From NCBI RefSeq assembly GCF_017353515.1, contig NZ_JAFMPY010000035.1:1-40092 (forward strand): a stretch of DNA of 40,092 bases, given 5' to 3'. This document shows, one piece after another, positions 641 through 16,808 of the stretch (position 1 is its first letter; every line of letters begins with the position of its first letter). Origin of the DNA: Jiella sonneratiae. Lineage in GTDB: Bacteria; Pseudomonadota; Alphaproteobacteria; Rhizobiales; Rhizobiaceae. Under the pieces are notes generated by a model. The model was not told the DNA's origin, made no database searches, and was given only the letters and a program-made list of their open reading frames with translations. Made by a program: the position numbers and the translations under genes.

Positions 641-2008
641 CTACAGCTCCGCCGCGACGTCGTCGAGCGCGTGCCTCAGGCGCGCGAACATCTCCCTGGT
701 CTCGGCCTCGGTGATGATCTGCGGCGGCGAGAGCGCGATGCGGTTGCCGATCAGCCGGGTGATGAGGCCGTGTCCGCGCGTCGCCGCGTCGAGCCGCGGC
801 ATCACGTTGAGGCGCGGATCGTGCAGCGCCTTGCTGGCCTTGTCGGCGACGATCTCGACCGCGCCGATCAGGCCGACGCCGCCGGACGCGCCGACGAGGG
901 GATGGTCTTCCAGCTCGGCGAACCCCTGCAGGAACGTCGGCTCGATCGCCTTCACATGCCCGACGAGATCCATTTCCTCGTAGATCGTCAGGACTTCCGA
1001 GGCGACCGCGCAGGCGACGGGATGCCCCGAATAGGTATAGCCGTGGGTGAAGCTTCCGAAGCGGTCGCTCTGTTCCAGCATCGCCTCGAACACCCGGTCG
1101 GCGATGATCACCGCCGAGATCGGGATGACGGCCGCCGACAGCGCCTTGGCCGAGCAGATGAGATCCGGGCGGATGCCGTAGGTCTGGCTGCCCCACATCT
1201 CGCCGGTGCGCCCGAAGCCGCAGATCACCTCGTCGGCGACGAACAGGATGCCGTATCTGTCGAGAACCGCCTGGACCTTCTGGAAATAGCCGGCCGGCGG
1301 CGTGATGACGCCGCCCGAACCCATCACCGGCTCCGCCCAGAAGGCCGCGACCGTCTCCGGCCCCTCCTTCAGGATCAGGGCTTCGATCTCCTCGGCGAGA
1401 CGGGTCGAGAACGCCTCCTCGCTTTCGCCGGGCTCGGCGAGGCGGTAGTGATAGGGCTGCGTGACGTAGAGAAAGCCCTCGAAGGGCAGCCCGAAGCCCT
1501 GGTGGAAATTGTCCTTGGCCGTCAGGCAGGAGGTCAGCGTTCCGGTGCCGTGATAGGCCTGGCGCCGGGAGATGATCTTGCGCCGCTGCGGCTCGCCCCT
1601 GGCATGCCAGTAATACCAGACCAGCTTGATCGCCGTGTCGTTCGCTTCGGTGCCGGAGGACTGCAGCAGCACCTTGTCCATGCCTTCCGGGGCGATCGCG
1701 GCGAGCTTGGCCGAAAGCACCCCGGCGGCCGGCGTGCCCGAGCCGCGGAAGTTATGGTAGTAGCCGATCTCGGTGATGGCCTTCCGCGCCACCTCGGCGA
1801 GACGCTCGCTGCCGAAGCCGAGCGACGCGCACCACAGCGCCGCGGCGCCTTCGATATATTCCTTGCCCTCGTCGTCATAGACGTGGATGCCGCTGCCGCG
1901 CACGAACATCGTCGGCCCGAGGGCGAGATGGGCGCGCAGATTGGTATGCGGGTGCACCTGATGCGCGGCGTCGAGGGACGCAGCGGAATCGCGATTGGAA
2001 ATGTGCAT
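641..2008 (-). CDS. Class III (omega) aminotransferase, PLP-dependent
   Basis: 455 aa, the normal length for omega-amino acid:pyruvate or putrescine/GABA aminotransferases. These move the terminal amino group of an amine or omega-amino acid to pyruvate or 2-oxoglutarate and leave an aldehyde. Visible family marks: the phosphate-binding SSGTEAND (117-124), the cofactor-binding Asp259 in FVADEVICGFGRTG, and the Schiff-base Lys288 in CSAKALSAA. The protein is soluble with no signal peptide, so it is cytoplasmic. It is transcribed away from the aldehyde dehydrogenase gene at 2492, which would oxidise the aldehyde formed. The shared 483-bp region between them carries a repeat and candidate promoters. 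The start ATG at 2008 has only a weak, distant AGGA. Enzyme class is certain; the true amine substrate is not known. Confidence 0.93.
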   Translation of the reverse strand: MHISNRDSAASLDAAHQVHPHTNLRAHLALGPTMFVRGSGIHVYDDEGKEYIEGAAALWCASLGFGSERLAEVARKAITEIGYYHNFRGSGTPAAGVLSAKLAAIAPEGMDKVLLQSSGTEANDTAIKLVWYYWHARGEPQRRKIISRRQAYHGTGTLTSCLTAKDNFHQGFGLPFEGFLYVTQPYHYRLAEPGESEEAFSTRLAEEIEALILKEGPETVAAFWAEPVMGSGGVITPPAGYFQKVQAVLDRYGILFVADEVICGFGRTGEMWGSQTYGIRPDLICSAKALSAAVIPISAVIIADRVFEAMLEQSDRFGSFTHGYTYSGHPVACAVASEVLTIYEEMDLVGHVKAIEPTFLQGFAELEDHPLVGASGGVGLIGAVEIVADKASKALHDPRLNVMPRLDAATRGHGLITRLIGNRIALSPPQIITEAETREMFARLRHALDDVAAEL

Positions 2009-2054
2009 GGGTTGCGGCTCGTCCTGGGGAATGCCGGAAGAAGCGGGGACCGGT

Positions 2055-2072
2055 CATTTCGTAGAATAGAAT
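2055..2072 (-). promoter_or_regulatory. Candidate operator, copy A (ATTCTAnTC motif)
   Basis: On the minus strand this reads ATTCTATTCTACGAAATG, 47-64 bases before the aminotransferase start. It matches 14 of 18 positions of the copy before the aldehyde dehydrogenase (2375-2392) and 11 of 18 of the copy before the ABC operon (5147-5164). A TTGACG hexamer lies upstream on the same strand (2113 to 2108), but no convincing -10 stands at the right distance. Binding by the IclR protein encoded at 15813 is inference. Confidence 0.35.
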
Positions 2073-2190
2073 GCCATTGCTCCCAACAGAATTCATTTCG
2101 TCGCCCTCGTCAAGCGGGAAGACGCCGGCCTCGCCCTGGATGCGCCTGCCGCTTCAGCCGTGGGCACGGTCGGCCGACGGCCCTGGCCAC

Positions 2191-2291
2191 TGATACGAGA
2201 TCCGCTCGATCAGAGCGGGGCTCGTATCAAGCCCGCGCGGCGAATGAGCGTCTTTGTTTCCGGCATCACGACGTGATCTGCCGGAAACCGT
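2191..2291. repeat. 101-bp double-hairpin intergenic repeat, copy 1
   Basis: This element is repeated at 17832-17932 with the same length and 6 mismatches over 101 bases. The first half folds as TGATACGAG...CTCGTATCA (9-bp arms) enclosing CCGCTC...GAGCGG. The second half folds as GTTTCCGGC...GCCGGAAAC (9-bp arms), here enclosing ATCAC gac GTGAT. Several mismatches fall in loops. This copy lies between divergent genes, so it is unlikely to be just a terminator here. It resembles bacterial REP/RIME-type palindromic elements, but I cannot name the family. Confidence 0.85.
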
Positions 2292-2353
2292 CTGAGTTCA
2301 TGCTTGTCCGGGGTTCGTCGCAGCGAAATTCGCGGCCGCGCCGCCGCGGGCGC

Positions 2354-2382
2354 TTGAATTTCGCCGGCGACAGTATTCTAAT
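2354..2382 (+). promoter_or_regulatory. Candidate sigma-70 promoter for aldehyde dehydrogenase gene
   Basis: TTGAAT (2354-2359), a 17-base spacer, then TCTAAT (2377-2382), 4/6 and 5/6 matches to the consensus. It lies in an AT-richer patch about 110 bases before the ATG at 2492. The -10 element sits inside the ATTCTAATC motif, so a protein bound there would block the promoter. Confidence 0.45.
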
Positions 2383-2392
2383 CGTCAAAATG
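2375..2392 (+). promoter_or_regulatory. Candidate operator, copy B (ATTCTAnTC motif)
   Basis: Reads ATTCTAATCGTCAAAATG and overlaps the -10 of the candidate promoter for the aldehyde dehydrogenase gene. It shares ATTCTA, TC at positions 8-9, C at 12 and AAATG at the end with copy A before the aminotransferase. Regulation by the nearby IclR protein is inferred from this sharing only. Confidence 0.35.
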
Positions 2393-2491
2393 GCGTTTCA
2401 TCTGTTGGAACGATAGGGATCCCCGGTCCCTCGCCGGGAGCGCCGGGCGTTCCCGGCTTCAACGCCCGAAGGCCGCTACGAAGGACATCCC

Positions 2492-3973
2492 ATGGGTCTG
2501 GAGACACTCGCGAACTTCATCGACGGCGCGTTCTGCCCGCCCGTCGGCGGCGCCTATTTCGAAACCGACGATCCCTTCACCGCCGAAGCCTGGGGCCTGA
2601 TCCCCCGGTCGGGCGCGGAAGACGTCGACAGGGCCGTCGCCGCCGCGCGCCGGGCCTTCCGGGAGGGGGCATGGCCGGCGATGACGCCCGGCCAGAGGGG
2701 CGCGGCACTGCACCGGATCGCCGAGGCGATCGCCGAGAACGCGGAGGAACTCGCCCGGATCGAGGTCCGCGACAACGGCAAGACCTACAAGGAGATGCTG
2801 GCGCAGGTGAAGCGGATTCCGGACTGGTACCGGTTCTTCGGCGGTCTGGCCGACAAGATCACCGGCGCCGTCCTGCCTTCGGACAAGCCCGGCCACATGA
2901 ACTACCTCACCCGCGAGCCGCTCGGCGTGATCGCGATGGTGACGCCCTGGAACTCGCCGCTGATGCTGCTCGCCTGGAAGCTGGCGCCGGCGCTCGCGGC
3001 CGGCAACACGGCGGTGGTCAAGCCCTCGGAATTCACCTCCGCCTCGGCCCTGCGGTTTGCCGAGCTCGTGGCGGCGACCGGCCTGCCGTCCGGGGTGCTC
3101 AACGTCGTGACCGGCCTCGGCTCCGAGGCAGGGGCGGCCCTCGTCGGGCATCGCGACGTCGCCAAGGTCGCGTTCACCGGCGGCGTCGGCGGCGGGTGCT
3201 CCGTCTATTCCGCCGCCGCGGTGGGCCTCAAGCCCGTCAGCCTCGAACTCGGCGGCAAGTCCCCGAACATCGTCTTCGAGGACGCCGATCTGGAAATGGC
3301 CGCCCGCGGCGTCGTCGCCGGCATTTTCGGGTCGGGCGGCCAGAGCTGCGTCGCCGGCTCGCGCCTCCTCGTGCAGCGCGGCATCCACGACCGGCTGGTC
3401 GCCCGGATCGTCGAACTTACCGGAAAAATCAGGCTCGGCGATCCGATGTCGCCCGACACCGACATCGGCCCGGTCGCCACCCGCCCGCAGTTCGAGCGGA
3501 TCATGACCTGCATCGGCTGGGCCAAGGAGGACGGTGCCGCCGTCGCGACGGGAGGCTCGCAGGTTCCGGATCCGAGCGGCGGACGAGCCCTCTTCGTCGC
3601 GCCGACGATCTTCACCGGCGTCAGAAACGACATGCGGATCGCGCAGGAAGAGGTCTTCGGGCCGGTGCTGTGCGTCATCCCCTTCGACGACGAGGCCGAG
3701 GCGGTGGCGATCGCCAACGATACGAGGTTCGGGCTCGGGGCGGGGCTCTGGACCCGCGACGTCGCGCGGGTCCATCGCGTCGCCGCGCGGCTTGAGGCGG
3801 GGACGGTCTGGGTCAACACCTACAAGATCACCTCGCATCTGTCGCCCTTCGGCGGCTACAAGGCCTCCGGCCTCGGCCGCGAGGGGGGCATGGAGATGAT
3901 CGGGGGCTATCTCCAGACCAAGAGCGTCTGGCTCAACCTGACCGACGAGGTCGCCTACGGTTTTCCGCTCTAG
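2492..3973 (+). CDS. NAD(P)-dependent aldehyde dehydrogenase
   Basis: 493 aa, standard length for the ALDH superfamily, which oxidises an aldehyde to the acid with NAD(P)+. The visible catalytic set is complete: Asn154 in TPWNSP, Lys177 in VVKPSE, general base Glu252 in LELGGKSPN and nucleophile Cys286 in GSGGQSCVAGS. The later EEVFGPV and SPFGGYKASGLGRE blocks are also present. There is no signal peptide. GAAGGA (2480-2485) stands six bases before the ATG. It diverges from the aminotransferase gene and is followed after 124 bases by a hydroxyacid dehydrogenase, so it probably handles the aldehyde released by the aminotransferase or by the DAO-type oxidoreductase of the island. The natural aldehyde is unknown; closest well-known types would be betaine-, aminobutyraldehyde- or succinate-semialdehyde dehydrogenases. 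Confidence 0.94.
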   Translation: MGLETLANFIDGAFCPPVGGAYFETDDPFTAEAWGLIPRSGAEDVDRAVAAARRAFREGAWPAMTPGQRGAALHRIAEAIAENAEELARIEVRDNGKTYKEMLAQVKRIPDWYRFFGGLADKITGAVLPSDKPGHMNYLTREPLGVIAMVTPWNSPLMLLAWKLAPALAAGNTAVVKPSEFTSASALRFAELVAATGLPSGVLNVVTGLGSEAGAALVGHRDVAKVAFTGGVGGGCSVYSAAAVGLKPVSLELGGKSPNIVFEDADLEMAARGVVAGIFGSGGQSCVAGSRLLVQRGIHDRLVARIVELTGKIRLGDPMSPDTDIGPVATRPQFERIMTCIGWAKEDGAAVATGGSQVPDPSGGRALFVAPTIFTGVRNDMRIAQEEVFGPVLCVIPFDDEAEAVAIANDTRFGLGAGLWTRDVARVHRVAARLEAGTVWVNTYKITSHLSPFGGYKASGLGREGGMEMIGGYLQTKSVWLNLTDEVAYGFPL

Positions 3974-4097
3974 TGGATCGAATTTGACGTTCGAGTCCCG
4001 CTCGGGAGAGGCGTCGTCCCGAATGTCACATCACGGATTTGAAGCGTGACCTTTCGATTCCGGCATGGGCCGATCGGTCATCACGGAGCGGAAGAAA

Positions 4098-5093
4098 ATG
4101 CCGGATCCGGACCATGAGGAGCGCGGCAGGATGCCGGATGGGCCGAACCGGCCCGGCCCGGTCATCGTCAACCAGATCGATGCCGCTTTCTCCCGGGTGC
4201 TGGCCGGCCATCGCAGCCGGCCGCGGGTGATCGAGCATTTCGATGCCGAACGGCCGTGGACGCTTCCGGAAAGCGCCGAGATCCTCGTCACCAGAGCCAT
4301 GGGCGCCTGGCGGTCGACGCCGGGCGACTGGACGCCCCCGCCGCGGCTCGCCTGGGTGCAGACCTATTCGGCCGGGGTCGACATCTATCCGCCAGCCCTC
4401 ATGGCCGGCAGGCTCGTCACCTGCGGGCGCGGCCTCACCTCCCCGCAGATCGCCGAATACGTCCTCGCCGCCATCCTGAGGTTCGAGAAGCGGCTGGACG
4501 AGGTCCGCGCCCGCTCTCCCGCCGACTGGATAGATCGGGAGATCGGGGCGATCGAGGGCAAGTGCCTGGGCCTTCTCGGCTACGGCTCGATCGGCCGCGA
4601 GGTCGCGAGGCGGGCCGCCGCCTTCGGCATGGAGATCCGCGTCTGCCGCAACGGCCCCTGGACGTCGGACGACCCCATCGTCCGGCCCTGCGCGAGCCCT
4701 GCGGAACTGGTCGCGCTGGCCGACCATCTCGTCCTCGCGGTCCCTTCGACGCCGGCGACCCGCGGGATGGTCGATGCGGGGCTGCTCGGCCAAGCGAGGC
4801 CGGGCCTTCATCTCGTCAACGTCTCGCGCGGTGCCGTTCTCGACCACGACGCGTTGCTCGCGGCGATCGACGCCGGCCGCATCGCCGGCGCGACGCTCGA
4901 CGTGACGGCGCCCGAGCCGCTGCCCGCCGGTCACCCGCTCTGGACCCGGCCGGGCGTGCTACTCACGCCGCATCTTTCGTTCAAGGGCGGCCGCGAGGCG
5001 GAGCGCTTCGCCGCGAGGGTCACGGCGAATATCGACGCCTATCTCGCCTCGGCGCCGATGCAGGATCTCGTCGATCAGAGACGCGGCTACTGA
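4098..5093 (+). CDS. D-2-hydroxyacid dehydrogenase family, NAD-binding
   Basis: 331 aa from the chosen start. The family reversibly reduces 2-oxo acids to D-2-hydroxy acids with NAD(P)H. Seen: the Rossmann motif GLLGYGSIGRE (158-168), the catalytic Arg244 in NVSRGAV, Glu273 in APEPLPAGHPLW and His292 in LLTPHLSF, the usual Arg-Glu-His triad. An earlier in-frame ATG exists at 4065, but only the one at 4098 has a good ribosome site (GGAG about nine bases upstream), so I start there. The preceding gene is the aldehyde dehydrogenase on the same strand. The 3' side has a GGCGG...CCGCC inverted repeat just before the ABC promoter. The substrate is not predictable; glyoxylate/hydroxypyruvate-type or a pathway-specific keto acid are options. 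Confidence 0.88.
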   Translation: MPDPDHEERGRMPDGPNRPGPVIVNQIDAAFSRVLAGHRSRPRVIEHFDAERPWTLPESAEILVTRAMGAWRSTPGDWTPPPRLAWVQTYSAGVDIYPPALMAGRLVTCGRGLTSPQIAEYVLAAILRFEKRLDEVRARSPADWIDREIGAIEGKCLGLLGYGSIGREVARRAAAFGMEIRVCRNGPWTSDDPIVRPCASPAELVALADHLVLAVPSTPATRGMVDAGLLGQARPGLHLVNVSRGAVLDHDALLAAIDAGRIAGATLDVTAPEPLPAGHPLWTRPGVLLTPHLSFKGGREAERFAARVTANIDAYLASAPMQDLVDQRRGY

Positions 5094-5119
5094 TCGGCGG
5101 ATCGGGCCCCGCCGGCTGC

Positions 5120-5148
5120 TTGACTCACTTTGCGTGAGCGGCTAGCAT
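5120..5148 (+). promoter_or_regulatory. Candidate sigma-70 promoter of the ABC/DAO/molybdoenzyme operon
   Basis: TTGACT (5120-5125), 17 bases, then TAGCAT (5143-5148): 5/6 and 4/6 to the consensus at ideal spacing. It lies about 130 bases before the ATG of the solute-binding protein in an AT-rich patch. The ATTCTACTC motif starts inside the -10. Confidence 0.5.
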
Positions 5149-5164
5149 TCTACTCTGTAGCAAG
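5147..5164 (+). promoter_or_regulatory. Candidate operator, copy C (ATTCTAnTC motif)
   Basis: Reads ATTCTACTCTGTAGCAAG and overlaps the -10 and probable start of transcription of the ABC operon. It shares the ATTCTAnTCT core with copy A. TAGC stands on both sides of the core. Common control of aminotransferase, aldehyde dehydrogenase and transporter by one regulator would explain the three copies. Confidence 0.35.
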
Positions 5165-5279
5165 TCATTCCAATAGATAGAACAACGTGTGTCGACGGCC
5201 AGCGGGCTTCGGGCGGCAGACGAATGCTCGTGACGTCGGGCAGAGCGGCTTCGACGTGCGGCCAACACGGAGAGTGGAA

Positions 5280-6446
5280 ATGGCGCAGGACGACATGAAG
5301 ACCGGGACGGCACTCGTCGGCGAAGCGGCGCGCCGGTTTTCCCGAAGAATTCTCTTGAAGAACGCCGCCGCGCTCGGCGTCGCGGCAGCTTCGGGCCCGC
5401 TCTACGTCAAGCGCGCCTTCGCGAGCTCGGGCGAGCTCAACATCCTCTGCTGGACGGACGAACTGCCCGATCCGGTTCTCAGCGACTTCAAGGCGGCGAC
5501 GGGCATCACCGTCAAGAAGACGCCCTTCTCCTCGAACGAGGAGCAGATCAACAAGATGCAGGCGACGCTCGGCCAGGGCTTCGACCTCTGCATGCCGTCG
5601 TTCAACCGCGCCAAGGACTTCCAGTTTCTCGAGGTGCTGAAGCCCTTCGACGAATCCAGGATCGATGCCTCCGCCTACCTGCCGTCGCTCCTGAAGGCCT
5701 CGTCCGATCTGTGGACCTGGGACGGGCTCTACCATCTGCCGCATGTCTGGGGCACCGAGGCGCTGGCCTGGAACACCGACGCGAACAAGCTGACCTATGC
5801 CGATTCCAGCTACGGGCTCCTGTGGGATCCGAAATATGCCGGCAAGGTGGAGATGCGCACCTATTCCGGCCTGCTCGGGCTGGGTCTTTGGATGGACGCG
5901 ACCGGCAAGCTGTCGACCAATCGCATGCTCGACAGCTACAAGGACGAAGCGACCATGCGGAAGATCTACGACGAGCTGACCGCCTATGCGGTCGCCCACA
6001 AGAGCCAGATCAGGCAGTTCTGGGACAGCACCGACAGCATCCAGGCCGGCTTCCGCGAGAATGGCTGCACGATGGGCCAGACCTGGGACGGTCCGGTCAA
6101 GGCGATGATCAAGAACGGCGAGCCGATGGTGTTCATGGCGCCCAAGGAAGGGGCGCTGACCTGGATGGACGGCTTCGCTCTTTCGACCGCCGCCGAGAAT
6201 CTCGACGAGGTCTATGCCTTCCTCGACTACATCGAAAAGCCCGAGGTGGCCGGCAAGATCGCCGCCTTGTCGAATTACAACGCGGTGATCAAGGGCGCCG
6301 ACGCCTTCGTCCCGGAGGCCGACAAGAAGCTGTTCCGCGCTTCCTATCCCGAAGACTCGCTGGACAAGCTCTGGTGGTATCCGCCGGCTCCCGCCTGGTT
6401 CAACGCCATCCGCAACCAATATGCCGAGAAGTTTCAGGCGGCCTGA
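5280..6446 (+). CDS. ABC transporter periplasmic substrate-binding protein, polyamine (PotD/PotF) type, Tat-exported
   Basis: 388 aa. The N-terminus has a twin-arginine signal: SRRILLK (21-27), a hydrophobic stretch (AAALGVAAASG) and a likely cut after AFA near residue 48. Mature protein begins GELNILCWTD, the typical first beta strand of spermidine/putrescine-type binding proteins, and later WGTEALAWN and the hinge segments of this fold are present. GGAGAG (5269-5274) stands five bases before the ATG; a longer open frame upstream lacks such a site. It is the first gene of the operon, followed by ATPase and two permeases. Tat export suggests folding in the cytoplasm before secretion, which is less usual for polyamine-binding proteins. 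Substrate is probably a cationic or amine-containing compound, by family only. Confidence 0.92.
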   Translation: MAQDDMKTGTALVGEAARRFSRRILLKNAAALGVAAASGPLYVKRAFASSGELNILCWTDELPDPVLSDFKAATGITVKKTPFSSNEEQINKMQATLGQGFDLCMPSFNRAKDFQFLEVLKPFDESRIDASAYLPSLLKASSDLWTWDGLYHLPHVWGTEALAWNTDANKLTYADSSYGLLWDPKYAGKVEMRTYSGLLGLGLWMDATGKLSTNRMLDSYKDEATMRKIYDELTAYAVAHKSQIRQFWDSTDSIQAGFRENGCTMGQTWDGPVKAMIKNGEPMVFMAPKEGALTWMDGFALSTAAENLDEVYAFLDYIEKPEVAGKIAALSNYNAVIKGADAFVPEADKKLFRASYPEDSLDKLWWYPPAPAWFNAIRNQYAEKFQAA

Positions 6447-6447
6447 T

Positions 6448-6462
6448 CGCGGCGAAGCCGCG
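6448..6462 (+). other. Short GC hairpin after solute-binding protein gene
   Basis: CGCGGC gaa GCCGCG, a 6-bp stem with a triloop, starts just after the stop codon and precedes the much stronger hairpin at 6470. Together they form two consecutive stems in the 170-base gap before the ATPase gene. Confidence 0.5.
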
Positions 6463-6469
6463 CGCGACG

Positions 6470-6508
6470 GCCCGGGACCGGGGCGCCGGGGCCGCCCCGG
6501 TCCCGGGC
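6470..6508 (+). terminator. Strong intercistronic hairpin (attenuator or mRNA-stabilising stem)
   Basis: GCCCGGGACCGGGG (6470-6483) pairs perfectly with CCCCGGTCCCGGGC (6495-6508), a 14-bp all-but-continuous G:C stem with an 11-base loop, 24 bases after the binding-protein stop. No T-run follows, so it is more likely to protect the upstream message or cause partial termination than to end the operon. In ABC operons such stems commonly let the binding protein be made in excess of the membrane parts. Confidence 0.65.
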
Positions 6509-6616
6509 GCGGCCTTCGCGCAGGCGGCACCGTGCCTGTCTCGCCTTTTGCCGATCCCGCAAAGCCGGTTTCATTCGCACTGCTGAGGCGGACACCGCCG
6601 AGGGGCTGAAGCTTAG

Positions 6617-7705
6617 ATGGCATTGACGACTGCAGTCGAGTTCGAACGGGTCAGGGTCGACTTCGGCCCCTTCACGGCGGTTCACGAGACCGACCTGGAG
6701 ATCGGCAGCGGAGAATTCTTCTCCTTCCTCGGTCCCTCCGGATGCGGCAAGACCACGCTGCTGCGGGCGATTTCGGGTTTCGTCGAACCCAGCTCGGGCC
6801 GGATCCGCATCGGCGGCGCCGACATGGCCGGCGTCGGACCGAACAAGCGCCCGACGGCGCTGATCTTCCAGAATCTCGCACTGTTTCCGATGATGTCGGT
6901 GGCCGAGAACGTCGGCTACGGCCTGCGCGTCCGCGGCGTGGCGCGGGGGGTGCGGCAGGAGAAGGTCGGGCGGCTGCTCGACCAGGTCGCCCTCAGCCAG
7001 CACGCCGACAAGAAGGTCAGCGAACTATCCGGCGGCCAGCGCCAGCGCGTGGCGATCGCAAGGGCGCTCGCCGTCGAGCCGAAGGTGCTGCTCCTCGACG
7101 AGCCGCTTTCGGCTCTCGACCTGAAGCTGCGCCAGCACATGCGCCGCGAGCTGCGGGAGATCCAGCAGCGCGTCGGCATCACCTTCATCTACATCACCCA
7201 CGATCAGGGCGAGGCGCTGACCATGTCCGACCGGATCGCCGTGATGAATGCCGGCCGGATCGAGCAGGTCGGCGACGGGCGGACGATCTACGCCCATCCG
7301 CAGACGCCCTTCGTCGCCTCCTTCGTCGGCGAGACCAACGCGATCCACGGCCGGGTCGCCTCGGTGTCCGGCGAGCTCGCCACCGTCGACACGCCGCTCG
7401 GCCCGCTCACCGGGCGCAACATACGCCACCTGTCGCCGGGCGCGACGGCGACGCTCTTCGTCCGGCCCGAACTCGTCCGGCTCAGCGCCGCCGAAGGCGA
7501 CTGCAGCATCCACGGAACGCTCAGCGAGATGGCCTTCGAAGGCAGCATGACGCATCTGACGCTGCGCACGCCCACCGACACCCGGATCGCCGCCATGCTG
7601 GTCGCCGCCGATCTCAGCCGGTTGCCGGGCGAGGGCGCGCCGCTGACCGCGTCCTTCACGCCGGCGAGCGCGGTGGTCCTGCCGGAAGCGGCGCAAGCGG
7701 CATGA
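6617..7705 (+). CDS. ABC transporter ATP-binding protein, PotA/PotG type
   Basis: 362 aa. Walker A GPSGCGKT (39-46), Q-loop Gln85 in IFQNLALFP, signature LSGGQRQR (137-144), Walker B VLLLDEPLSALD (157-168) and switch His195 in YITHDQGEA are all intact. The last part (about 290-350) looks like the TOBE regulatory domain found in polyamine and sugar importers. It powers import through the two permeases that follow. Its stop overlaps the ATG of the first permease by four bases (ATGA), which shows translational coupling. An AGGGG lies about eleven bases before the ATG. Confidence 0.95.
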   Translation: MALTTAVEFERVRVDFGPFTAVHETDLEIGSGEFFSFLGPSGCGKTTLLRAISGFVEPSSGRIRIGGADMAGVGPNKRPTALIFQNLALFPMMSVAENVGYGLRVRGVARGVRQEKVGRLLDQVALSQHADKKVSELSGGQRQRVAIARALAVEPKVLLLDEPLSALDLKLRQHMRRELREIQQRVGITFIYITHDQGEALTMSDRIAVMNAGRIEQVGDGRTIYAHPQTPFVASFVGETNAIHGRVASVSGELATVDTPLGPLTGRNIRHLSPGATATLFVRPELVRLSAAEGDCSIHGTLSEMAFEGSMTHLTLRTPTDTRIAAMLVAADLSRLPGEGAPLTASFTPASAVVLPEAAQAA

Positions 7706-9575: not shown

Positions 9576-9612
9576 CGGCCCCAGGGATACGTCTCGAACG
9601 AAAGGAAGCCCC

Positions 9613-10941
9613 GTGTCGCCTCGCCTCGAGAGCGTCCGCTCAGCAAGCGTTCCGCCGAAGACCGCCGACGTCGTCGTCGTCGGCGCCGGCATCGTCGGCG
9701 TCTCGGCGGCCCTGACGCTGGCCGAGCGCGGCAGTTCGGTCGTCGTCGTGGAGAAGGGCGTCGTCGCCGGAGAGCAGTCGAGCCGCAATTGGGGCTGGTG
9801 CCGCGAGCAGCTGCGCGCGCTGCCCGAACTGCCGCTGGCGATGCGCTCCATGCAGCTCTGGCGCGGCATGAGCGCCAGGATCGGGGGCGATTCCGGCTAC
9901 CGCGAGACCGGCATGATGGTCGTCAGCAAGGACGAGGAGGAGGTCGAGAGGTGGCGTGCCTGGCTCGATGCGACCGCCGCCTGCGGCCTTCAGGGCGGCA
10001 TCCTGTCGGCCGCCGAGACGAGGAGCATGCTGCCGGGCACCGCCGAGACCTGGATCGCGGCGATCCATTCGCCGACGGACGGCTGGGCCGAGCCGTCGAT
10101 GGCGACGCCGGCCATGGCCCGCGGGGCGCAGAAGAAGGGCGCCGTCATCGTCGAGAACTGCGCCGTCCGCGGCTGGGAGACGGAGGCCGGGCGCGTCGCC
10201 CGCGTCGTCACCGAGAAGGGCACGATCCGGGCGGGCTCGGTGCTGGTGGCGGGCGGCGCCTGGTCGGCGATGCTGCTGCGCCGCATGGGCGCGGCCTTCC
10301 CGCAGTCCGGCGTCTATGCGAGCGCCTTCCGGACGGAAGCCGCGCCTGAGGTCTATGCCGGCGGCGTCGGCAGTCCGCGCTTCTCCTTCCGGCGGCGCAT
10401 CGACGGCGGCTATACGATCGGCATGCGTGGCAGGGGCCGGGTCGATCTCACCCCGATGGGCCTCATGCGGGCCCGCCAGTTCATGCCGCTGTTCTTCCGG
10501 CGCAAGGGCGAGCTGACGCTCGGCCTCGGCCGCTCCTTCTTCGAGGGGCCCTTCGCCCTGCGGCGGTGGCGGCTCGACGGGCGCTCGCCCTTCGAGGCGC
10601 AGCGGATCCTCGATCCCGCGCCGGATCCCGCGCTGGTCGAAGCCGGCATGGCCGCATTCCGCGCGGCCTATCCGGCAATGGCGGAGATCGGCGTCAAGGA
10701 GAGCTGGGGCGGCCTGATCGACGCGACACCCGACATGGTGCCGGTGATCGGCCCGGTGCCCGATCGGCCGGGCGTCTTCCTCGCCAGCGGCTTCAGCGGC
10801 CACGGCTTCGCGCTCGGGCCGGGCGCCGGCTGGCTCGCCGCCATGCAGATCCTCGGCGAAGCGCCGGGCATCGACGACCGCCCCTTCCGCTTTTCCCGCT
10901 ACGACGAGGGACAGCCGCATCCGGCTCATCACTGGATATGA
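9613..10941 (+). CDS. FAD-dependent oxidoreductase, DAO (glycine/D-amino acid oxidase) family
   Basis: 442 aa. The FAD-binding Rossmann motif VVVGAGIVG (21-29) ends in Glu47 (VVVVEKG), the residue that binds the FAD ribose. EQSSRNWGWCREQ follows, a variant seen in a DAO subfamily with Cys/Trp near the flavin. The C-terminal GVFLASGFSGHGFALGPG closes the FAD site. Such enzymes oxidise C-N bonds of amino acids or secondary amines to imines, then oxo products plus ammonia or amine. The start is GTG at 9613 with AAAGGAAG (9601-9608). It sits directly behind the importer and before two molybdoenzymes on the same strand, so it most likely acts on the imported compound in the cytoplasm. Substrate unknown. 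Confidence 0.9.
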   Translation: MSPRLESVRSASVPPKTADVVVVGAGIVGVSAALTLAERGSSVVVVEKGVVAGEQSSRNWGWCREQLRALPELPLAMRSMQLWRGMSARIGGDSGYRETGMMVVSKDEEEVERWRAWLDATAACGLQGGILSAAETRSMLPGTAETWIAAIHSPTDGWAEPSMATPAMARGAQKKGAVIVENCAVRGWETEAGRVARVVTEKGTIRAGSVLVAGGAWSAMLLRRMGAAFPQSGVYASAFRTEAAPEVYAGGVGSPRFSFRRRIDGGYTIGMRGRGRVDLTPMGLMRARQFMPLFFRRKGELTLGLGRSFFEGPFALRRWRLDGRSPFEAQRILDPAPDPALVEAGMAAFRAAYPAMAEIGVKESWGGLIDATPDMVPVIGPVPDRPGVFLASGFSGHGFALGPGAGWLAAMQILGEAPGIDDRPFRFSRYDEGQPHPAHHWI

Positions 10942-10969
10942 ACGCGGCGGGACGGCACGGGCGACGACC

Positions 10970-13312
10970 ATGACACGCTTTCGTCAGCACAGCAGCCACT
11001 GGGGCGCGTTCACGGCGCGGATGCGGGACGGGCGGCTGGAGCTGAAGCCCTTCGACCGGGATCCCGACCCCTCGCCGCTTCTGGCCAACCTTGCGGCGGC
11101 GATCGACCATCCGGCCCGGTTGCGGCGGCCGCTGGTCCGTCGCGGCTGGCTCGACGACGGGCCGGGGCCGGATCCCCGCCGCGGCAGCGACGGCTATGTC
11201 GAGATGGACTGGGACGGAGCGCTCGCGCTGACGGCGGCCGAACTCCGCCGGCTCGGCGCCGGCCCGGACCTGCCGCAGGCAGGCGCCCTGCCCGGCGCGC
11301 AGGTCTTCGGCGGATCCTACGGCTGGGCCTCCGCCGGCCGCTTCCATCACGCCCAGAGCCAGGTCCACCGCTTCCTCAACACCGTCTTCGGCGGCTATGT
11401 CGGGAGCGTCGACACCTATTCGACCGGCGCGGGTTCGGTCATCCTGTCGCTGGTCTGGGGTCCCTCGCCGGTGCTGACCCGCGACCACCCCACCTGGCGC
11501 GAGCTGAAGGACGAGACCGAGCTCCTGATCGCCTTCGGCGGCCTGCCGCTGCGCAATCTCGCCATCAGCCCCGGCGGCAACAGCGAGCATGCCGCCCGGT
11601 CCGTGCTGGAGGCCGCCGCGAGGCGCGGCTGCCAATTCGTCTCGATCAGCCCGCTGGCCGACGACGTCGCCGACATCGGCGATCCCACCCGCCTTGCGCC
11701 CCGCCCGGCGACGGATACAGCGCTGATGCTGGGGATGGCGCATCGGCTGCATGCGACCGGCCGGGTGAACCGGGCCTATCTCGACCGCTACACCACGGGT
11801 TACGAGCGCTTCGAAGCCTATCTGACGGGCGCGGCCGACGGCGTCGCCAAGACGCCGGAATGGGCCGCCTCGATCTGCGGCATCTCGGCGAAGGACATCG
11901 CCGGCCTCGCCGACCGGGCCGCATCAAGGCGCACGCTCGTCACCGTCTCCTACGCCCTGCAGCGCGCCGAGAACGGCGAGCAGCCCGTCTGGATGGCCCT
12001 GACGCTCTCGGCGATGCTCGGCCAGGGCCACCTGCCGGGAGCCGGCTTCTGCTACGGGCTCGGATCGATCGGCAACATCGGCAAGGACAAGCTCGACGTG
12101 CCGCTGCCGACCTTTCCGCAAGGCCGCAACCGCGTCGCCGACTTCATTCCCGTCGCGCGGATATCCGATCTTCTGCTGAAACCGGGCGAGGCATACACCT
12201 ACAAAGGCGAGACGCGGCACTATGCCGACATCCGCCTCGTCTACTGGGCGGGCGGCAATCCGTTTCACCACCATCAGGATCTGGCGAAGCTGCGGGCGGC
12301 CTTCGCACGGCCCGACACCATCGTCATGCACGAGAGCGTCGCCACCGCATCGACGCGCCATGCCGACATCGTCTTTCCCGCGACGATCACCGCCGAGCGC
12401 GAGGATGTCGGCGCCGCCGCCAACGAGCCCTTCCTGTTCGCGATGGAGCCGCTCGTCGAACGCCCCGAAACGGCCGGCTGCGGCCCGCGCGACGACTACG
12501 ACCTCTTTTGCGCGCTGGCCGATCGCCTGGGTTGCGGTCCCGCCTTTTCCGAAGGGCGGAGTGCGGGAGAATGGCTCGCCGCGATGTACGAGCCGACGCG
12601 CGCCGCACTGGCGGCGCGCGGCCTCGCCGCGCCAGACTACGAAGCGTTTCGCGAGGGCGGGGTTCTCGCCCTGCCGCTGCGCGACGAGGAGGGCGCGATC
12701 CGCCGGTTCCATCGCGATCCGGCGGCCAACCCCTTGCAGACGCCGAGCGGCAGGATCGAGCTCTGGTCCGACGTCGTCGCCGCGGCCGGGCTGCCGGGCC
12801 ATCCGGCATGGCTGCCGCCCCGCGAGTGGCTCGGCGCGCCGCAGGCCGCGCGCCACCCGTTCCAGCTCGTCGCCAACCAGCCGGCCAACCGGCTGCACAG
12901 CCAGCTCGACTTCGGCGCCACCTCGATGGCGGGCAAGACCGCCGGCCGGGAGCCCGCGCGGCTCAATCCCGCCGATGCCGCGCGTCTCGAGATCGCCGCC
13001 GGCGACGTAATCCGGCTGTGGAACGACCGCGGCGGCGTCCTTGCCGCGGCCGCGGTCTCGGCGGCGATCGCCCCCGGCGTCGTACAGCTCGCCACCGGCG
13101 CGTGGTACGCGCCGGTCGACCTTCCGGGCGTCGGGCCGACCTGCGTCAACGGCAATCCGAACGCGGTGACGGCCGACATCGGCGCCTCCCCGCTCAGCCA
13201 GGGCTGCGCCGGCCAGCTTTCTCTGGTCTCGATCGAGAAATGGCGCGGCGCGGTTCCGCCGGTCGTTCCCCACGCCGCCTTCGCGGCCGCCGAGAGGAGC
13301 GATCCGGCATGA
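10970..13312 (+). CDS. Molybdopterin oxidoreductase, DMSO/TMAO/biotin-sulfoxide reductase type (paralogue A)
   Basis: 780 aa, the length of cytoplasmic BisC-like enzymes. There is no N-terminal Cys cluster for a 4Fe-4S centre and no Tat signal, so it is probably a cytoplasmic single-cofactor enzyme. The N-terminal SSHWG and the block FGGSYGWASAGRFHHAQ (113-129) are diagnostic; Tyr117 and Trp119 match the active-site Tyr and Trp of DMSO reductase. TYSTGAG supplies the Mo-ligand Ser151. WAGGNPFHHHQDL and the C-terminal SPLSQGCAGQ pterin-binding parts are also present. Known relatives reduce S-oxides or N-oxides. Compared with the next gene, the segment after the Mo-ligand (VILSLVWG) departs from the usual PHVVGT. 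It overlaps the next gene by ATGA. Confidence 0.92.
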   Translation: MTRFRQHSSHWGAFTARMRDGRLELKPFDRDPDPSPLLANLAAAIDHPARLRRPLVRRGWLDDGPGPDPRRGSDGYVEMDWDGALALTAAELRRLGAGPDLPQAGALPGAQVFGGSYGWASAGRFHHAQSQVHRFLNTVFGGYVGSVDTYSTGAGSVILSLVWGPSPVLTRDHPTWRELKDETELLIAFGGLPLRNLAISPGGNSEHAARSVLEAAARRGCQFVSISPLADDVADIGDPTRLAPRPATDTALMLGMAHRLHATGRVNRAYLDRYTTGYERFEAYLTGAADGVAKTPEWAASICGISAKDIAGLADRAASRRTLVTVSYALQRAENGEQPVWMALTLSAMLGQGHLPGAGFCYGLGSIGNIGKDKLDVPLPTFPQGRNRVADFIPVARISDLLLKPGEAYTYKGETRHYADIRLVYWAGGNPFHHHQDLAKLRAAFARPDTIVMHESVATASTRHADIVFPATITAEREDVGAAANEPFLFAMEPLVERPETAGCGPRDDYDLFCALADRLGCGPAFSEGRSAGEWLAAMYEPTRAALAARGLAAPDYEAFREGGVLALPLRDEEGAIRRFHRDPAANPLQTPSGRIELWSDVVAAAGLPGHPAWLPPREWLGAPQAARHPFQLVANQPANRLHSQLDFGATSMAGKTAGREPARLNPADAARLEIAAGDVIRLWNDRGGVLAAAAVSAAIAPGVVQLATGAWYAPVDLPGVGPTCVNGNPNAVTADIGASPLSQGCAGQLSLVSIEKWRGAVPPVVPHAAFAAAERSDPA

Positions 13313-15690
13313 GCGACATCCGCTATTCGGCCGCGCACTGGGGCATCTACGAGATCGAGGCCGGGCCCGAGGGCCCGCGGCTTCTGCCGATGCGCGAGGA
13401 TCCGGACGCCTCGCCGATCGGGCTCCACCAGCTCGCGCCGGAACTTTCGGCCATGCGGGTGCGCCGCCCCGCCGTCCGCCGGAGCTTTCTCGACCACGGT
13501 CCCGGCGCCCGGACCGAACTGCGCGGCAAGGAGCCCTTCGTCGAAATCTCCTGGGACGAGGCCATCCGGCTGGTCGCGGAGGAGCTGACGCGGGTGCGCG
13601 CCCGCCATGGCAACGAGGCGATCTTCGGCGGCTCCTACGGCTGGGCCTCGGCCGGGCGCTTCCATCACGCCCAGAGCCAGATCCACCGCTTCCTCAACTC
13701 TATCGGCGGCTACGTCGCCCACCGCGACAGCTACTCGCTCGGCGCGGCGCGGGTGGTGCTTCCGCATGTCGTCGGCACGATGGACGAGCTGATGAAGAGC
13801 CACACCTCCTGGGACGTGCTGGCCGACCACTGCGAACTCTTCGTCAGCTTCGGCGGCGTGCCGGCGAAGAACGCCCAGATCAGCCAGGCCGGGGCCGGGC
13901 GCCACCGGCTGCGCGCGGCGCTCGAAAGAATGGCGCGCGCCGGATGCCAGTTCGTCAACGTCTCTCCGCTCGCCTCCGGCATCGAGACCGGCGGCCCGGT
14001 CGAATGGCTTGCCGCCCGGCCGGGCTCGGACACGGCGCTGATGCTGGGGCTGGCCTTCGAGATCCACGCAAGCGGGCTGCACGACCGCGAATTCCTGTCG
14101 CGCTACTGCGTCGGCTGGGAGCGCTTCGAGCCCTATCTGACCGGCGCTTCGGACGGCCAGCCGAAGTCGGCCGACTGGGCGGCGGAGCTCACCGGCCTTG
14201 CCGCCGGGCGGATCCGGGACCTGGCGCGACGCATGGGCGAAAAACGCACCATGATCAACGCCGCCTGGTCGCTGCAGCGGGCCGACCATGGCGAGCAGCC
14301 CTTCTGGATGCTGGTGACGCTCGCTGCGATGCTCGGCCAGATCGGGCTGCCGGGCGGCGGCTTCGGCCTCGGCTATGGCTGCGAGAATTCGATCGGCAGC
14401 GCTCACGCCCGGCTGTCGGGCCCGACGCTGCCGCAGGGGCGAAATGCCGTGCAGGCCTTCATCCCGGTGGCGCGGATCGCCGACATGCTGGAAAGGCCGG
14501 GCGACGGCTTCGCCTATGACGGCGGGCATTACCGCTATCCGGACATCCGGCTGATCTACTGGGCCGGCGGCAATCCCTTCCACCATCACCAGGATCTCGG
14601 GCGGCTGGAACGCGCCTGGCAAAAGCCCGAGACGATCGTGGTGCACGAGCCGTTCTGGACGCCGACCGCCCGGCGCGCCGACATCGTCCTGCCGGTGACG
14701 ACGCCGACCGAGCGCGAGGACATCAGCTATGCGACGCTCGAAGGCTATCTCGTGGCGTCGCGGCCCGTCTCGCCGCCGCTCGGCGCGGCGCTGGACGACT
14801 ACGAGATCTTTCGCCGCATCGCCGCCCATCTGGACGTCGAGGATGCTTTCTCGGAGGGACGCGACACGGAAGCCTGGCTGCGGCACCTTTATGACGGCAT
14901 GCGCCGGCGATGGGCGGATGCCGGCGTGGCGCTTCCCGACTTCGACGGATTCCGGGCCGTCGGCCGGATCGACCTTTCGAGCCACGACGAGCCGGAACGC
15001 ATCTGCCTCGAAGCGTTCCGCGCCGATCCGGCCGCTGCGCCGCTGCCGACGCCGTCCGGGCGGATCGAGATCCACAGCGAGACCGTCGCGGGCTTCGCCC
15101 TGGCCGATTGCCCGGGCCATCCGGTCTGGCTGCCGCCGGCCGAATGGCTGGGCGCCGAGCTTGCCGCCCGCTATCCGCTGCATCTGATCTCCGACCAGCC
15201 CGAGCGCCGGCTGCACAGCCAGCTGGACCCCTCGCCGCACAGCCGGTCCGGCAAGATCGCGGGACGCGAGCCGGTCACCATGCATCCCGCCGACGCCGCG
15301 GCCCGCGGCCTCAACGACGGCGAGGTCGTCGAACTCTTCAACGACCGCGGCGGCTGCCTGGCGGGCCTGCGTCTCTCCGAGGCGGCGATGCCCGGCGTGG
15401 TGCGGCTCGCGACCGGCGCCTGGTTCGATCCCGATCCCGAAACCGGACGGGACCGGCACGGCAATCCCAACGTCCTGACCGCCGATCGCCCGGCCTCGTC
15501 GCTGAGCCAGGGCTGTGCGGCCCAGAGCTGCCTCGTCGAGATCAGGCGGCCGCCGGAGACGCCGGGCCCGCCCCGCCCCTTCGTCCTGCCCGAATTGATC
15601 GCCGCGGCCGCGCCGGGCGAAGGCGCGGACCCCGAGCGCAGCGAAGCCGGGAGAAACGATCGTTCGGACGCCGCGGGACAGCCGCCGTGA
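13309..15690 (+). CDS. Molybdopterin oxidoreductase, DMSO/TMAO/biotin-sulfoxide reductase type (paralogue B)
   Basis: 793 aa paralogue of the preceding gene, translationally coupled by a 4-bp ATGA overlap. Active-site Tyr110 and Trp112 in GGSYGWASAGRFHH and the Mo-ligand Ser143 in SYSLGAARVV are present, followed by the orthodox PHVVGTMDELM. RTMINAAWSLQRADHGEQPFWM and LGQIGLPGGGFGLGYG follow DMSO reductase very closely. No Fe-S cysteines and no Tat signal are seen. Two overlapping members of the same family in one operon are unusual: they could form a heteromeric enzyme or treat two substrates or stereoisomers, for example R- and S-sulfoxides. The ATG at 13309 is the only start consistent with the coupling; a long open frame continues upstream but only overlaps paralogue A. 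Confidence 0.92.
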   Translation: MSDIRYSAAHWGIYEIEAGPEGPRLLPMREDPDASPIGLHQLAPELSAMRVRRPAVRRSFLDHGPGARTELRGKEPFVEISWDEAIRLVAEELTRVRARHGNEAIFGGSYGWASAGRFHHAQSQIHRFLNSIGGYVAHRDSYSLGAARVVLPHVVGTMDELMKSHTSWDVLADHCELFVSFGGVPAKNAQISQAGAGRHRLRAALERMARAGCQFVNVSPLASGIETGGPVEWLAARPGSDTALMLGLAFEIHASGLHDREFLSRYCVGWERFEPYLTGASDGQPKSADWAAELTGLAAGRIRDLARRMGEKRTMINAAWSLQRADHGEQPFWMLVTLAAMLGQIGLPGGGFGLGYGCENSIGSAHARLSGPTLPQGRNAVQAFIPVARIADMLERPGDGFAYDGGHYRYPDIRLIYWAGGNPFHHHQDLGRLERAWQKPETIVVHEPFWTPTARRADIVLPVTTPTEREDISYATLEGYLVASRPVSPPLGAALDDYEIFRRIAAHLDVEDAFSEGRDTEAWLRHLYDGMRRRWADAGVALPDFDGFRAVGRIDLSSHDEPERICLEAFRADPAAAPLPTPSGRIEIHSETVAGFALADCPGHPVWLPPAEWLGAELAARYPLHLISDQPERRLHSQLDPSPHSRSGKIAGREPVTMHPADAAARGLNDGEVVELFNDRGGCLAGLRLSEAAMPGVVRLATGAWFDPDPETGRDRHGNPNVLTADRPASSLSQGCAAQSCLVEIRRPPETPGPPRPFVLPELIAAAAPGEGADPERSEAGRNDRSDAAGQPP

Positions 15691-15694
15691 GGAG

Positions 15695-15708
15695 GGTGCC
15701 CGGGCACC
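15695..15708. promoter_or_regulatory. 14-bp perfect palindrome before the IclR gene
   Basis: GGTGCCCGGGCACC is its own reverse complement. It lies four bases after the paralogue B stop and about 105 bases before the IclR start. With no loop it is a poor terminator but a possible dimer binding site. It is not found at the other promoters of the island, so autoregulation would be the only reason to link it to IclR. Confidence 0.3.
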
Positions 15709-15812
15709 ATGCCCGGAGCCCCTCCCCCTTTCCGGATCGGGGGGCCCGCCGAGCGATCCCGCCGTTGCGCGATCGGTCGGCGAACCATAATTACCATGCG
15801 AACAATCACCGG

Positions 15813-16571
15813 ATGCAAAACGACGCGATGCTGGAAAACCCGCCGAAACTCAAGACCAAAGGCGTCGAAGCCGTCGACAAGGCTCTTCGGATCTTGAGTC
15901 TGTTCGGGTCGGGCAATCCGGTTCTGTCGCTCGGCGAGATCAGCGAGCGCAGCGGCCTCGTCAAGAGTTCCGCCCTGCGGCTGTTGATCTCCCTGCAGAA
16001 TGCCGGGTTCATCGCCATGACCGAAGACCGGCGATACACGATCGGCGTGGAGATGTTCCGGATCGGACGGGTATACCAGCAGAGCTTCCAGCTCGAGGCT
16101 CTGGTCCGCCCCGTCCTGCAGAACATCGTGCGCCAGACCGGCGAGAGCGGCTCCTACTTTCGCCGCGAGGGCGACCGCAGGGTATGCCTCTATCGCGAAG
16201 ACAGCGACCAGCCGCTCCGCGAGCACGTGATCGAGGGCGAAGCGGTGGAGATCGGCAAGGGCGCCGCCGGCCACGTCTTCAAGGAGTTCGGGCAATTCAG
16301 CGGCGACGTTCCGATCGCGCCGGAGGTTCTCGCGAGGCTCCCCATCGTCGTGCTCGGCGAGCGCGGTCCCGACATCGCCGGAATTTCCGCCCCGGTCTAT
16401 GCGTTCAACCAGGGCATGATCGGCGCCATCGCCCTGTCGGGGCCGCGAAGCCGCTTCGTCCAGGAGCGGATGGACGGTCTCAAGCACCTGGTGCTGCAGT
16501 CGGCGAGCCAGCTCAGCGGCGCCTTGCGCTCGAACTTCTACCAGCGCCTCGCCGTCCCGGAAAATTCCTGA
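15813..16571 (+). CDS. IclR-family transcriptional regulator
   Basis: 252 aa. The N-terminal winged helix-turn-helix (about 18-75) reads VDKALRILSLF...LSLGEISERSGLVKSSALRLL, then the IclR effector-binding domain (about 85-245) with EAVEIGKGAAGHV and GISAPVYAFNQGMIGAIALSG. IclR proteins bind small metabolites and usually control adjacent catabolic genes. It follows the molybdoenzyme gene by 122 bases on the same strand and is closed by a strong terminator, so it is the natural candidate regulator of the island. The ATG at 15813 is preceded only by ACCGG; a second ATG at 15828 is possible. Effector and operator are unknown; the ATTCTAnTC motif is a candidate. Confidence 0.92.
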   Translation: MQNDAMLENPPKLKTKGVEAVDKALRILSLFGSGNPVLSLGEISERSGLVKSSALRLLISLQNAGFIAMTEDRRYTIGVEMFRIGRVYQQSFQLEALVRPVLQNIVRQTGESGSYFRREGDRRVCLYREDSDQPLREHVIEGEAVEIGKGAAGHVFKEFGQFSGDVPIAPEVLARLPIVVLGERGPDIAGISAPVYAFNQGMIGAIALSGPRSRFVQERMDGLKHLVLQSASQLSGALRSNFYQRLAVPENS

Positions 16572-16603
16572 CGCCATTGATCCCGAAGACGCTGCGCAGC
16601 ATT

Positions 16604-16643
16604 GCCGGGCAGGGTCCACGACCGCTGCCTGCCCGGCCGTTTT
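16604..16643 (+). terminator. Rho-independent terminator after the IclR gene
   Basis: GCCGGGCAGG (16604-16613) pairs perfectly with CCTGCCCGGC (16628-16637), followed after two bases by TTTT (16640-16643). It lies 33 bases after the IclR stop and closes the catabolic island. Confidence 0.75.
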
Positions 16644-16808
16644 CTCGCGCGAGACCCGCATCCTCCGGCATCGGCTGATGCCGTTCTGCAACAGCGGCGG
16701 CGCTCTCGTCGTCCGGCGGCCGCCGTGGTGCCGGCGGCCCTGCGATCGGGAAGCTTTCCCTGCCTTACGAAATATATGGTCGGCCAATCGTTCGGTGGGG
16801 AGGGAACC

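Follow-up and report, generated by a model that had tools for sequence, protein, structure and literature searches.

We analysed a window of 40,092 nucleotides from Jiella sonneratiae (the whole stretch of NZ_JAFMPY010000035.1 under study), in which an island of eleven open reading frames at positions 641-16571 brings together an importer, a DAO-family flavoenzyme and two BisC-type molybdoenzymes, Mo1 and Mo2. Gene layout and spacers give the island the look of a single regulon whose long operon includes Mo1 and Mo2; the new findings are that the island is conserved, that it has an operator-like element and that the molybdoenzyme pair is optional. The explanation that we prefer, and to which we give about an even chance, is that one catabolic regulon serves an amino-acid-type compound, probably a sulfur amino compound, and that Mo1 and Mo2 would reduce its S-oxide (less likely an N-oxide) before deamination. 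The island and its flanking signals comprise the following features.

641-2008, minus strand: class III (omega) aminotransferase (AT), PRK06105 subfamily; PF00202, 281.1 bits
About 2053-2095, no strand assigned: operator-like two-box element before AT; 27.4 and 25.8 bits, two strands
2372-2414, no strand assigned: operator-like two-box element before the aldehyde dehydrogenase (ALDH) and hydroxyacid dehydrogenase (HADH) genes; 30.2 and 23.1 bits
2492-3973, plus strand: ALDH; PF00171, 571.8 bits
4065-5093, plus strand: D-2-hydroxyacid dehydrogenase, HADH; PF02826, 150.7 bits
5145-5186, no strand assigned: operator-like two-box element before the importer operon; 40.7 and 25.2 bits, the top place in 40 kb
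5280-6446, plus strand: solute-binding protein (SBP), PotD type; PF13416, 73.3 bits
6617-7705, plus strand: ATPase of the ATP-binding cassette (ABC) importer; PF00005, PF08402
7702-8706, plus strand: ABC importer permease 1; PF00528
8703-9575, plus strand: ABC importer permease 2; PF00528
9613-10941, plus strand: DAO-family flavoenzyme (hereafter DAO), L-amino acid deaminase-like; PF01266, 241.5 bits; PDB 5fjm, E 8.2e-69
10970-13312, plus strand: Mo1, BisC-type molybdoenzyme; PF00384, PF01568, PF18364
13309-15690, plus strand: Mo2, BisC-type molybdoenzyme; PF00384, PF01568
About 15813-16571, plus strand: IclR-type regulator; PF09339 (50.2 bits) and PF01614 (39.4 bits), both over cut-off
About 16604-16644, plus strand: possible terminator, a GC-rich stem-loop with T-run (10-pair stem, then TTTTCT)

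All eleven frames of the gene list in the earlier note are present and its family names hold, each protein having at least one Pfam match over the curated cut-off (ten were scanned together against Pfam and NCBIfam, and IclR separately against Pfam). AT also passes the cut-off of the PRK06105 subfamily (NF004767, 586.8 bits vs. 517); ALDH reached no NCBIfam cut-off among the matches listed. AT stands alone on the minus strand and ALDH and HADH form one plus-strand unit, followed by a longer one running from SBP through the ATPase, the permeases, DAO and Mo1 to Mo2, in which genes overlap or lie at most 37 bp apart, except for 170 bp after SBP. The gaps are 37 bp before DAO and 28 bp before Mo1, and Mo1 and Mo2 overlap by 4 bp; given these overlaps and short gaps, one transcript from SBP to Mo2 fits. 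The operon had been described as closed by IclR and a terminator, and the regulator is indeed there, 122 bases after Mo2. The stem-loop behind it is plausible only as a terminator, being no more stable than shuffled sequences (z -0.8) and absent from a consensus terminator scan. A foreign base composition of the island was considered and rejected, GC content being 0.688 within it and 0.691 in the remaining window.

A similar element rich in A and T was noticed by eye in the spacers before AT, ALDH and SBP. A first short pattern (GYATTCTAHTCT, two mismatches) was weak alone, giving 6 matches in the window vs. 2.6 expected, a number reached by 6 of 100 shuffles. The operator profile, with 42 columns and two boxes, was built on the stretches upstream of SBP in five islands from other genomes (L091, L092, L093, L099 and L100, introduced below) and contains no window sequence. 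Its six top hits in the window fall at the three places listed above, on both strands each, and the next hit scores 10.1 bits; the highest score in 60 simulated windows, which preserve neighbor frequencies only, is 14.8 bits, and the layout had already been seen by eye in the window and the islands. Outside its training set, the profile also finds the AT/AbrB promoter regions of L091, L092, L099 and L100 at 26.9-38.4 bits. Among 80 control loci with BisC-type genes (the top of a list from a search matching 265 of 297 genomes, weaker and fragmentary places being left out) the median best score is 11.65 bits, but two of them, L156 and L159, reach 28 bits, above the AT site. The best hit in a Palleronia island (13.5 bits) is at chance level, and no operator-like element was found on a Thioclava plasmid with a Mo2-type gene (L184, best 6.4 bits). 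A weak sigma-70-like promoter at 5120-5148 overlaps the importer element, and is likewise at chance level (1 found, 0.7 expected). The IclR proteins of six other islands share 53-65% identity with the one in the window, and the co-occurrence of regulator and element suggests that the regulon is probably controlled by its own IclR. Separately, another recurring BisC neighborhood was observed at L138, L140, L144 and L147-L150; its genes include a regulator of the IclR type (checked with Pfam in L138) and a class II aldolase (checked with Pfam in L149), and L138 (16198) and L140 (15921) carry palindromic profile hits of about 20 bits resembling the element of the island.

A pattern-based scan with SBP over the genome contigs of 84,980 species gave 8 loci, three of them at 64-70% identity, and a plasmid search with SBP added three further records above 60%. 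Rhizobium rhizogenes OV677 (L092) carries AT, an AbrB-type membrane gene, ALDH, HADH, IclR, the importer, DAO, Mo1 and Mo2, in the gene order of the window except that IclR lies between HADH and the importer instead of at the end and that the AbrB gene is added; its Mo1 and Mo2 counterparts likewise overlap by four bases and are placed after DAO. The core is found with no molybdoenzyme in the stretch examined in Pseudooceanicola (L091, which also has no HADH match), in Neorhizobium (L099) and on two Thioclava plasmids (L100 and L101, 98-100% alike in most proteins). In both Thioclava strains a second plasmid (L184) bears a gene of Mo2 type (65%), whose neighbors include an ALDH and an LLM-type gene. 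The gammaproteobacterium Halotalea alkalilenta (L093) has the importer, DAO, IclR, ALDH (55%), a Mo2-type gene (60%) and hydantoinase A and B, with no AT or HADH match in that stretch. In Palleronia (L183/L190) AT (71%), IclR (44%), ALDH (67%), HADH (46%), Mo2 (66%) and the AbrB gene stand together with an amino-acid-type importer instead, plus hydantoinase A/B. HADH is present too in L092, L099, L100 and L101, and ALDH is 77% identical to its counterparts in L092 and L099. We also observed that the SBP gene is in two pieces in Neorhizobium (L099, 13001-14145, where the annotation lists no gene) and on the Thioclava plasmid L101 (13001-14144) but intact on the other, L100, which may reflect decay or sequencing error.

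Of the islands in other genomes, seven in number, a single one carries Mo1 and Mo2 together, Halotalea and Palleronia carry just Mo2, and four have neither alongside. The earlier note had proposed a search for the same gene order in other Hyphomicrobiales genomes; this order, with both molybdoenzymes, exists in R. rhizogenes OV677 but does not extend to the four islands with no adjoining molybdoenzyme. Since the same set with its molybdoenzyme pair recurs in this strain and one element precedes three units, the grouping is not chance, and the idea of a co-regulated island gains from both observations. The alternative of a chance neighborhood of unrelated catabolic genes, for which the differing gene content of the islands could be cited, is scarcely credible against the shared set and order of L092 (save the IclR place and AbrB) and the common operator-like elements. 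The four islands indicate that the core needs no molybdoenzyme locally and that the pair is dispensable. Although L092 is closely related to L099 (AT 86%, DAO 78%), the molybdoenzymes occur only in L092, and the window DAO is about 66% identical to both. Between the window and L092, Mo1 (67%) and Mo2 (72%) have diverged much like the core genes (DAO 66%, SBP 67%), so that the simplest history would be an old pair lost in L099.

The island is rare and patchily distributed. In the carriers found the homologues are not scattered, contrary to the outcome that the earlier note had named as damaging, although the island is absent from the congeners searched (none of nine with a close SBP, best 37%). 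A search of the family (394 genomes, E 1e-90 or better) gave a best foreign SBP of 44%, and those of the class (385 genomes) and phylum (398 genomes), at E 1e-120 or better, gave SBPs of at best 54% and 55%. With ALDH, the class search (385 genomes, E 1e-190 or better) returned the own genome only.

Both molybdoenzymes have molybdenum-pterin domains over cut-off (PF00384 and PF01568) and align over nearly their full length to dimethyl sulfoxide (DMSO) reductase, keeping the YGW and YS(T/L) positions, which we take to hold functional residues of that enzyme, including the Ser ligand. The curated cut-off of TIGR00509 is missed (777.9 and 905.9 bits vs. 1017.55), and they are thus relatives of S- and N-oxide reductases rather than certified members; to this extent the BisC-like identity first proposed is confirmed. 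Family and residues suggest that Mo1 and Mo2 would reduce an S- or N-oxide. No signal peptide was seen by eye in either, and they are therefore taken as cytosolic, as BisC is. In a molybdoenzyme tree of 97 rows, made by a quick method and with one very long branch (L152_15855), Mo1 groups with the L092 Mo1 (support 100) within a 23-row clade, and Mo2 groups elsewhere with the L092 Mo2 (98), the Palleronia and Thioclava sequences adjoining them (100). A recent tandem duplication was accordingly rejected, each enzyme pairing with its own L092 counterpart in a different deep clade. A tandem BisC-type pair observed at L085 (8690-13223) consists of sisters in the tree and so is probably a recent duplication, unlike the pair of the window.

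A different role for these enzymes has to be considered, in which the core degrades a lactam or a plain amino acid or omega-amino acid, while Mo1 and Mo2 repair methionine or biotin sulfoxide arising from flavoenzyme peroxide or stress. Methionine sulfoxide and biotin sulfoxide are known substrates of BisC-type enzymes, the four islands with no adjoining molybdoenzyme fit such a role, and a plain substrate would agree with the class III/omega-transaminases that are the nearest solved structures of AT (closest chain 6tb0, E 5.7e-131) and with the hydantoinase A/B genes beside the set in Halotalea and Palleronia. However, both molybdoenzyme genes lie within the long operon of two distant islands, behind a common element, and in Palleronia, which showed no DAO, Mo2 is still found beside AT, ALDH and HADH. 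We regard repair as unlikely, if the strongest of the alternatives.

The substrate that links the molybdoenzymes to the core was approached through the importer and DAO. The nearest named models are those of the Pot systems for SBP and the permeases, and the ATPase, too, has Pot models among its best matches. The start of SBP and its twin-arginine-like signal (SRRILLK) were called by eye from the sequence. By alignment SBP appears to retain Trp293 and Asp295 (counted from codon 5286), matching amine-site residues of PotD/PotF. This Trp/Asp and the acidic residues form, we assume, the amine-binding site of those proteins. The PotD-type acidic pair is absent or replaced in the sequence alignment (the SBP structure model, at a pLDDT of 44.3, is unusable), and the PotD and PotF equivalog cut-offs are far off (81.0 vs. 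636 and 78.8 vs. 582 bits).

The best solved relatives of DAO are the Proteus L-amino acid deaminases (LAAD; 5fjm and 5hxw), in which Arg315/316 is reported to hold the substrate carboxylate (PMC5651824, excerpted text). Arg272 of DAO aligns with this residue, and is kept in all six island rows and in none of the three aligned paralogues. The kept carboxylate-binding Arg, together with an SBP that by alignment lacks part of the polyamine site, argues for an amino-acid-like ligand over a polyamine, neither being proof, and the substrate of the island is on this evidence probably an amino acid. A polyamine substrate, and with it the polyamine link of the earlier note, was accordingly dropped as the leading idea. 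If the island took up and degraded polyamines, with Mo1 and Mo2 as mere neighbors acting on something else, this would account for the Pot models and the apparently retained Trp293 and Asp295; given the widely missed cut-offs, the acidic pair replaced in the alignment, the DAO Arg and the lack of any glutamylputrescine-type model over cut-off among the matches listed for the ten island proteins, we consider it improbable.

Genomic context of relatives led us to lean towards organosulfur metabolism for the neighborhoods of the molybdoenzyme, HADH and SBP families. At L118 and L120, whose SBPs are 54% and 52% identical, a sulfoacetaldehyde acetyltransferase gene (xsc, over the TIGR03457 cut-off) lies nearby, and L122 has a gene of the xsc Pfam type at the corresponding position. 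A Mo1 relative (54%) on a plasmid of Rhizobium lies at most 6 kb from sfnG and msuE, near two LLM monooxygenase genes; two further Mo1 relatives are less clear, one having LLM genes and msuE. HADH relatives at E 1e-50 or better are found on seven plasmid records, four of which are islands; the other three carry, respectively, cysteine dioxygenase and rhodanese, mercaptopyruvate sulfurtransferase (sseA) and bisC, and, on an unannotated plasmid, a luciferase-type monooxygenase with an NMT1-type binding protein. A Cys/Met-lyase family gene occurs at 9 of the 80 BisC loci, whereas the frequency of such genes in the same 63 genomes (305 in 339.2 Mb) would predict 1.37; the two counts differ in profiles and thresholds (Poisson 1.4e-5, or 0.003 counting each of six families once). 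As an observation in its own right, at L063, L065, L066 and L070 a gene of the Cys/Met-lyase family (in L063 passing the cut-off of TIGR01324, cystathionine beta-lyase) and a DctM-type TRAP transporter gene (Pfam-tested in L066) lie close to BisC-type genes, with a hydroxyacid dehydrogenase-like gene also near in L063, L065 and L070; such a cluster could serve sulfoxides of sulfur amino acids.

A substrate other than a sulfoxide, whether N-oxide, hydroxylamine or N-hydroxy amino compound, would be in keeping with the N-oxide reductases of the family and the TorA-type matches, and was among the proposals of the earlier note. The context of relatives points to sulfur and no N-oxide-specific gene was noticed, and we judge such a substrate rather unlikely, a little more so than repair. 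Several observations weigh against a sulfur amino compound that is reduced and then deaminated. The island itself showed no gene specific to sulfur metabolism, identity is no higher than 52-54% for the SBP relatives close to xsc, L094-L096 and L124 have no sulfur context by eye, and several plasmid Mo2 relatives have no clear sulfur neighbor. Four of the seven other islands (L091, L099 and the near-identical L100 and L101) have no adjoining molybdoenzyme, and Palleronia has no annotated DAO in the stretch examined. A general DAO-BisC partnership in the order was rejected, at 3 of 80 unselected loci vs. a rough 1.2 expected from the four close copies of the own genome (P 0.12). Finally, Tyr97, Gln99, Gln278, Ser313 and Trp438 of LAAD (residue list from the excerpted text of PMC5651824, with a chain offset of 17 in the alignment) are all unkept in DAO, and with five pocket residues changed its specificity is not that of LAAD.

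Despite these points, an amino-acid sulfoxide is our best guess for the substrate. The PotD-type importer would bring the compound in, and Mo1 and Mo2, acting in the cytosol, would reduce its S-oxide (less likely N-oxide). The flavoenzyme may then convert the amino acid to a 2-keto acid, which HADH could interconvert with the hydroxy acid, and the omega-aminotransferase and ALDH may take a terminal amine or aldehyde to the carboxylate. The data are compatible with the order of events proposed earlier, reduction first and deamination after. The molybdoenzymes would thereby extend a core pathway to the oxidized form of its substrate, and could be lost.

More tentatively still, the island may encode an undescribed route for a chiral amino-acid sulfoxide, in which Mo1 and Mo2 would each reduce one epimer in the cytosol and DAO would make the 2-keto acid, with one regulator for uptake, reduction and breakdown; we think this doubtful. 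Repair and respiration are the roles in which BisC-type enzymes are mostly discussed, and if this route were true they would have neither, serving carbon and nitrogen catabolism instead. The wider point is that two BisC-type enzymes sit inside one catabolic regulon, which is found again in distantly related bacteria with its operator-like element kept. Knowing which inducer frees the operator, and which ligand SBP binds, would name the compound for both enzymes, making their physiological substrate directly searchable.

Outside the island, a reading frame at the left contig end (25-588) encodes a protein 97% identical to one at the beginning of another contig of this genome, C75, and from this near-copy the contig ends in a repeat. 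For the frame at 16602-17834, which adjoins the island, none of the nine congeners gave a match at E 1e-30 or better.

Among the papers listed in literature searches limited to open-licence PMC we recognised none describing this gene set, and the closest known systems each share part of it. The caprolactam pathway of Pseudomonas jessenii (PMC6061476, in the excerpted text) likewise has an omega-aminotransferase and aldehyde oxidation, and its hydantoinase-like two-subunit lactamase has a parallel in hydantoinase A/B in the Halotalea and Palleronia variants, with no Pfam match to it among the eleven island proteins. The island differs in having DAO and molybdoenzymes, 'molybd' occurring 0 times in the main text of that paper. 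Taurine and N-acetyltaurine degradation (xsc, tpa, naa; PMC4334477, excerpted text) is approached through the SBP relatives at 52-54% near xsc in L120 and L118, whereas the island has no xsc and its AT belongs to another subfamily, PRK06105. PotABCD and PotFGHI share the importer architecture and, as far as the alignment goes, apparently the Trp/Asp of the amine site; the acidic pair, absent by alignment, and the unmet equivalog cut-offs set the island apart. DAO keeps the carboxylate-binding Arg of the Proteus LAAD, but its flavin adenine dinucleotide (FAD) motif starts near residue 19, leaving no N-terminal twin-arginine translocation (Tat)/membrane stretch of the Proteus kind. With the BisC/DMSO reductase type (TIGR00509; Rhodobacter DMSO reductase, TorA) Mo1 and Mo2 share full-length homology, molybdenum-pterin domains, YGW and Ser. 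They depart from it in having no electron-transfer partner gene among the eleven genes of the island and in standing as two divergent members within one catabolic operon, together with an importer and a deaminase.

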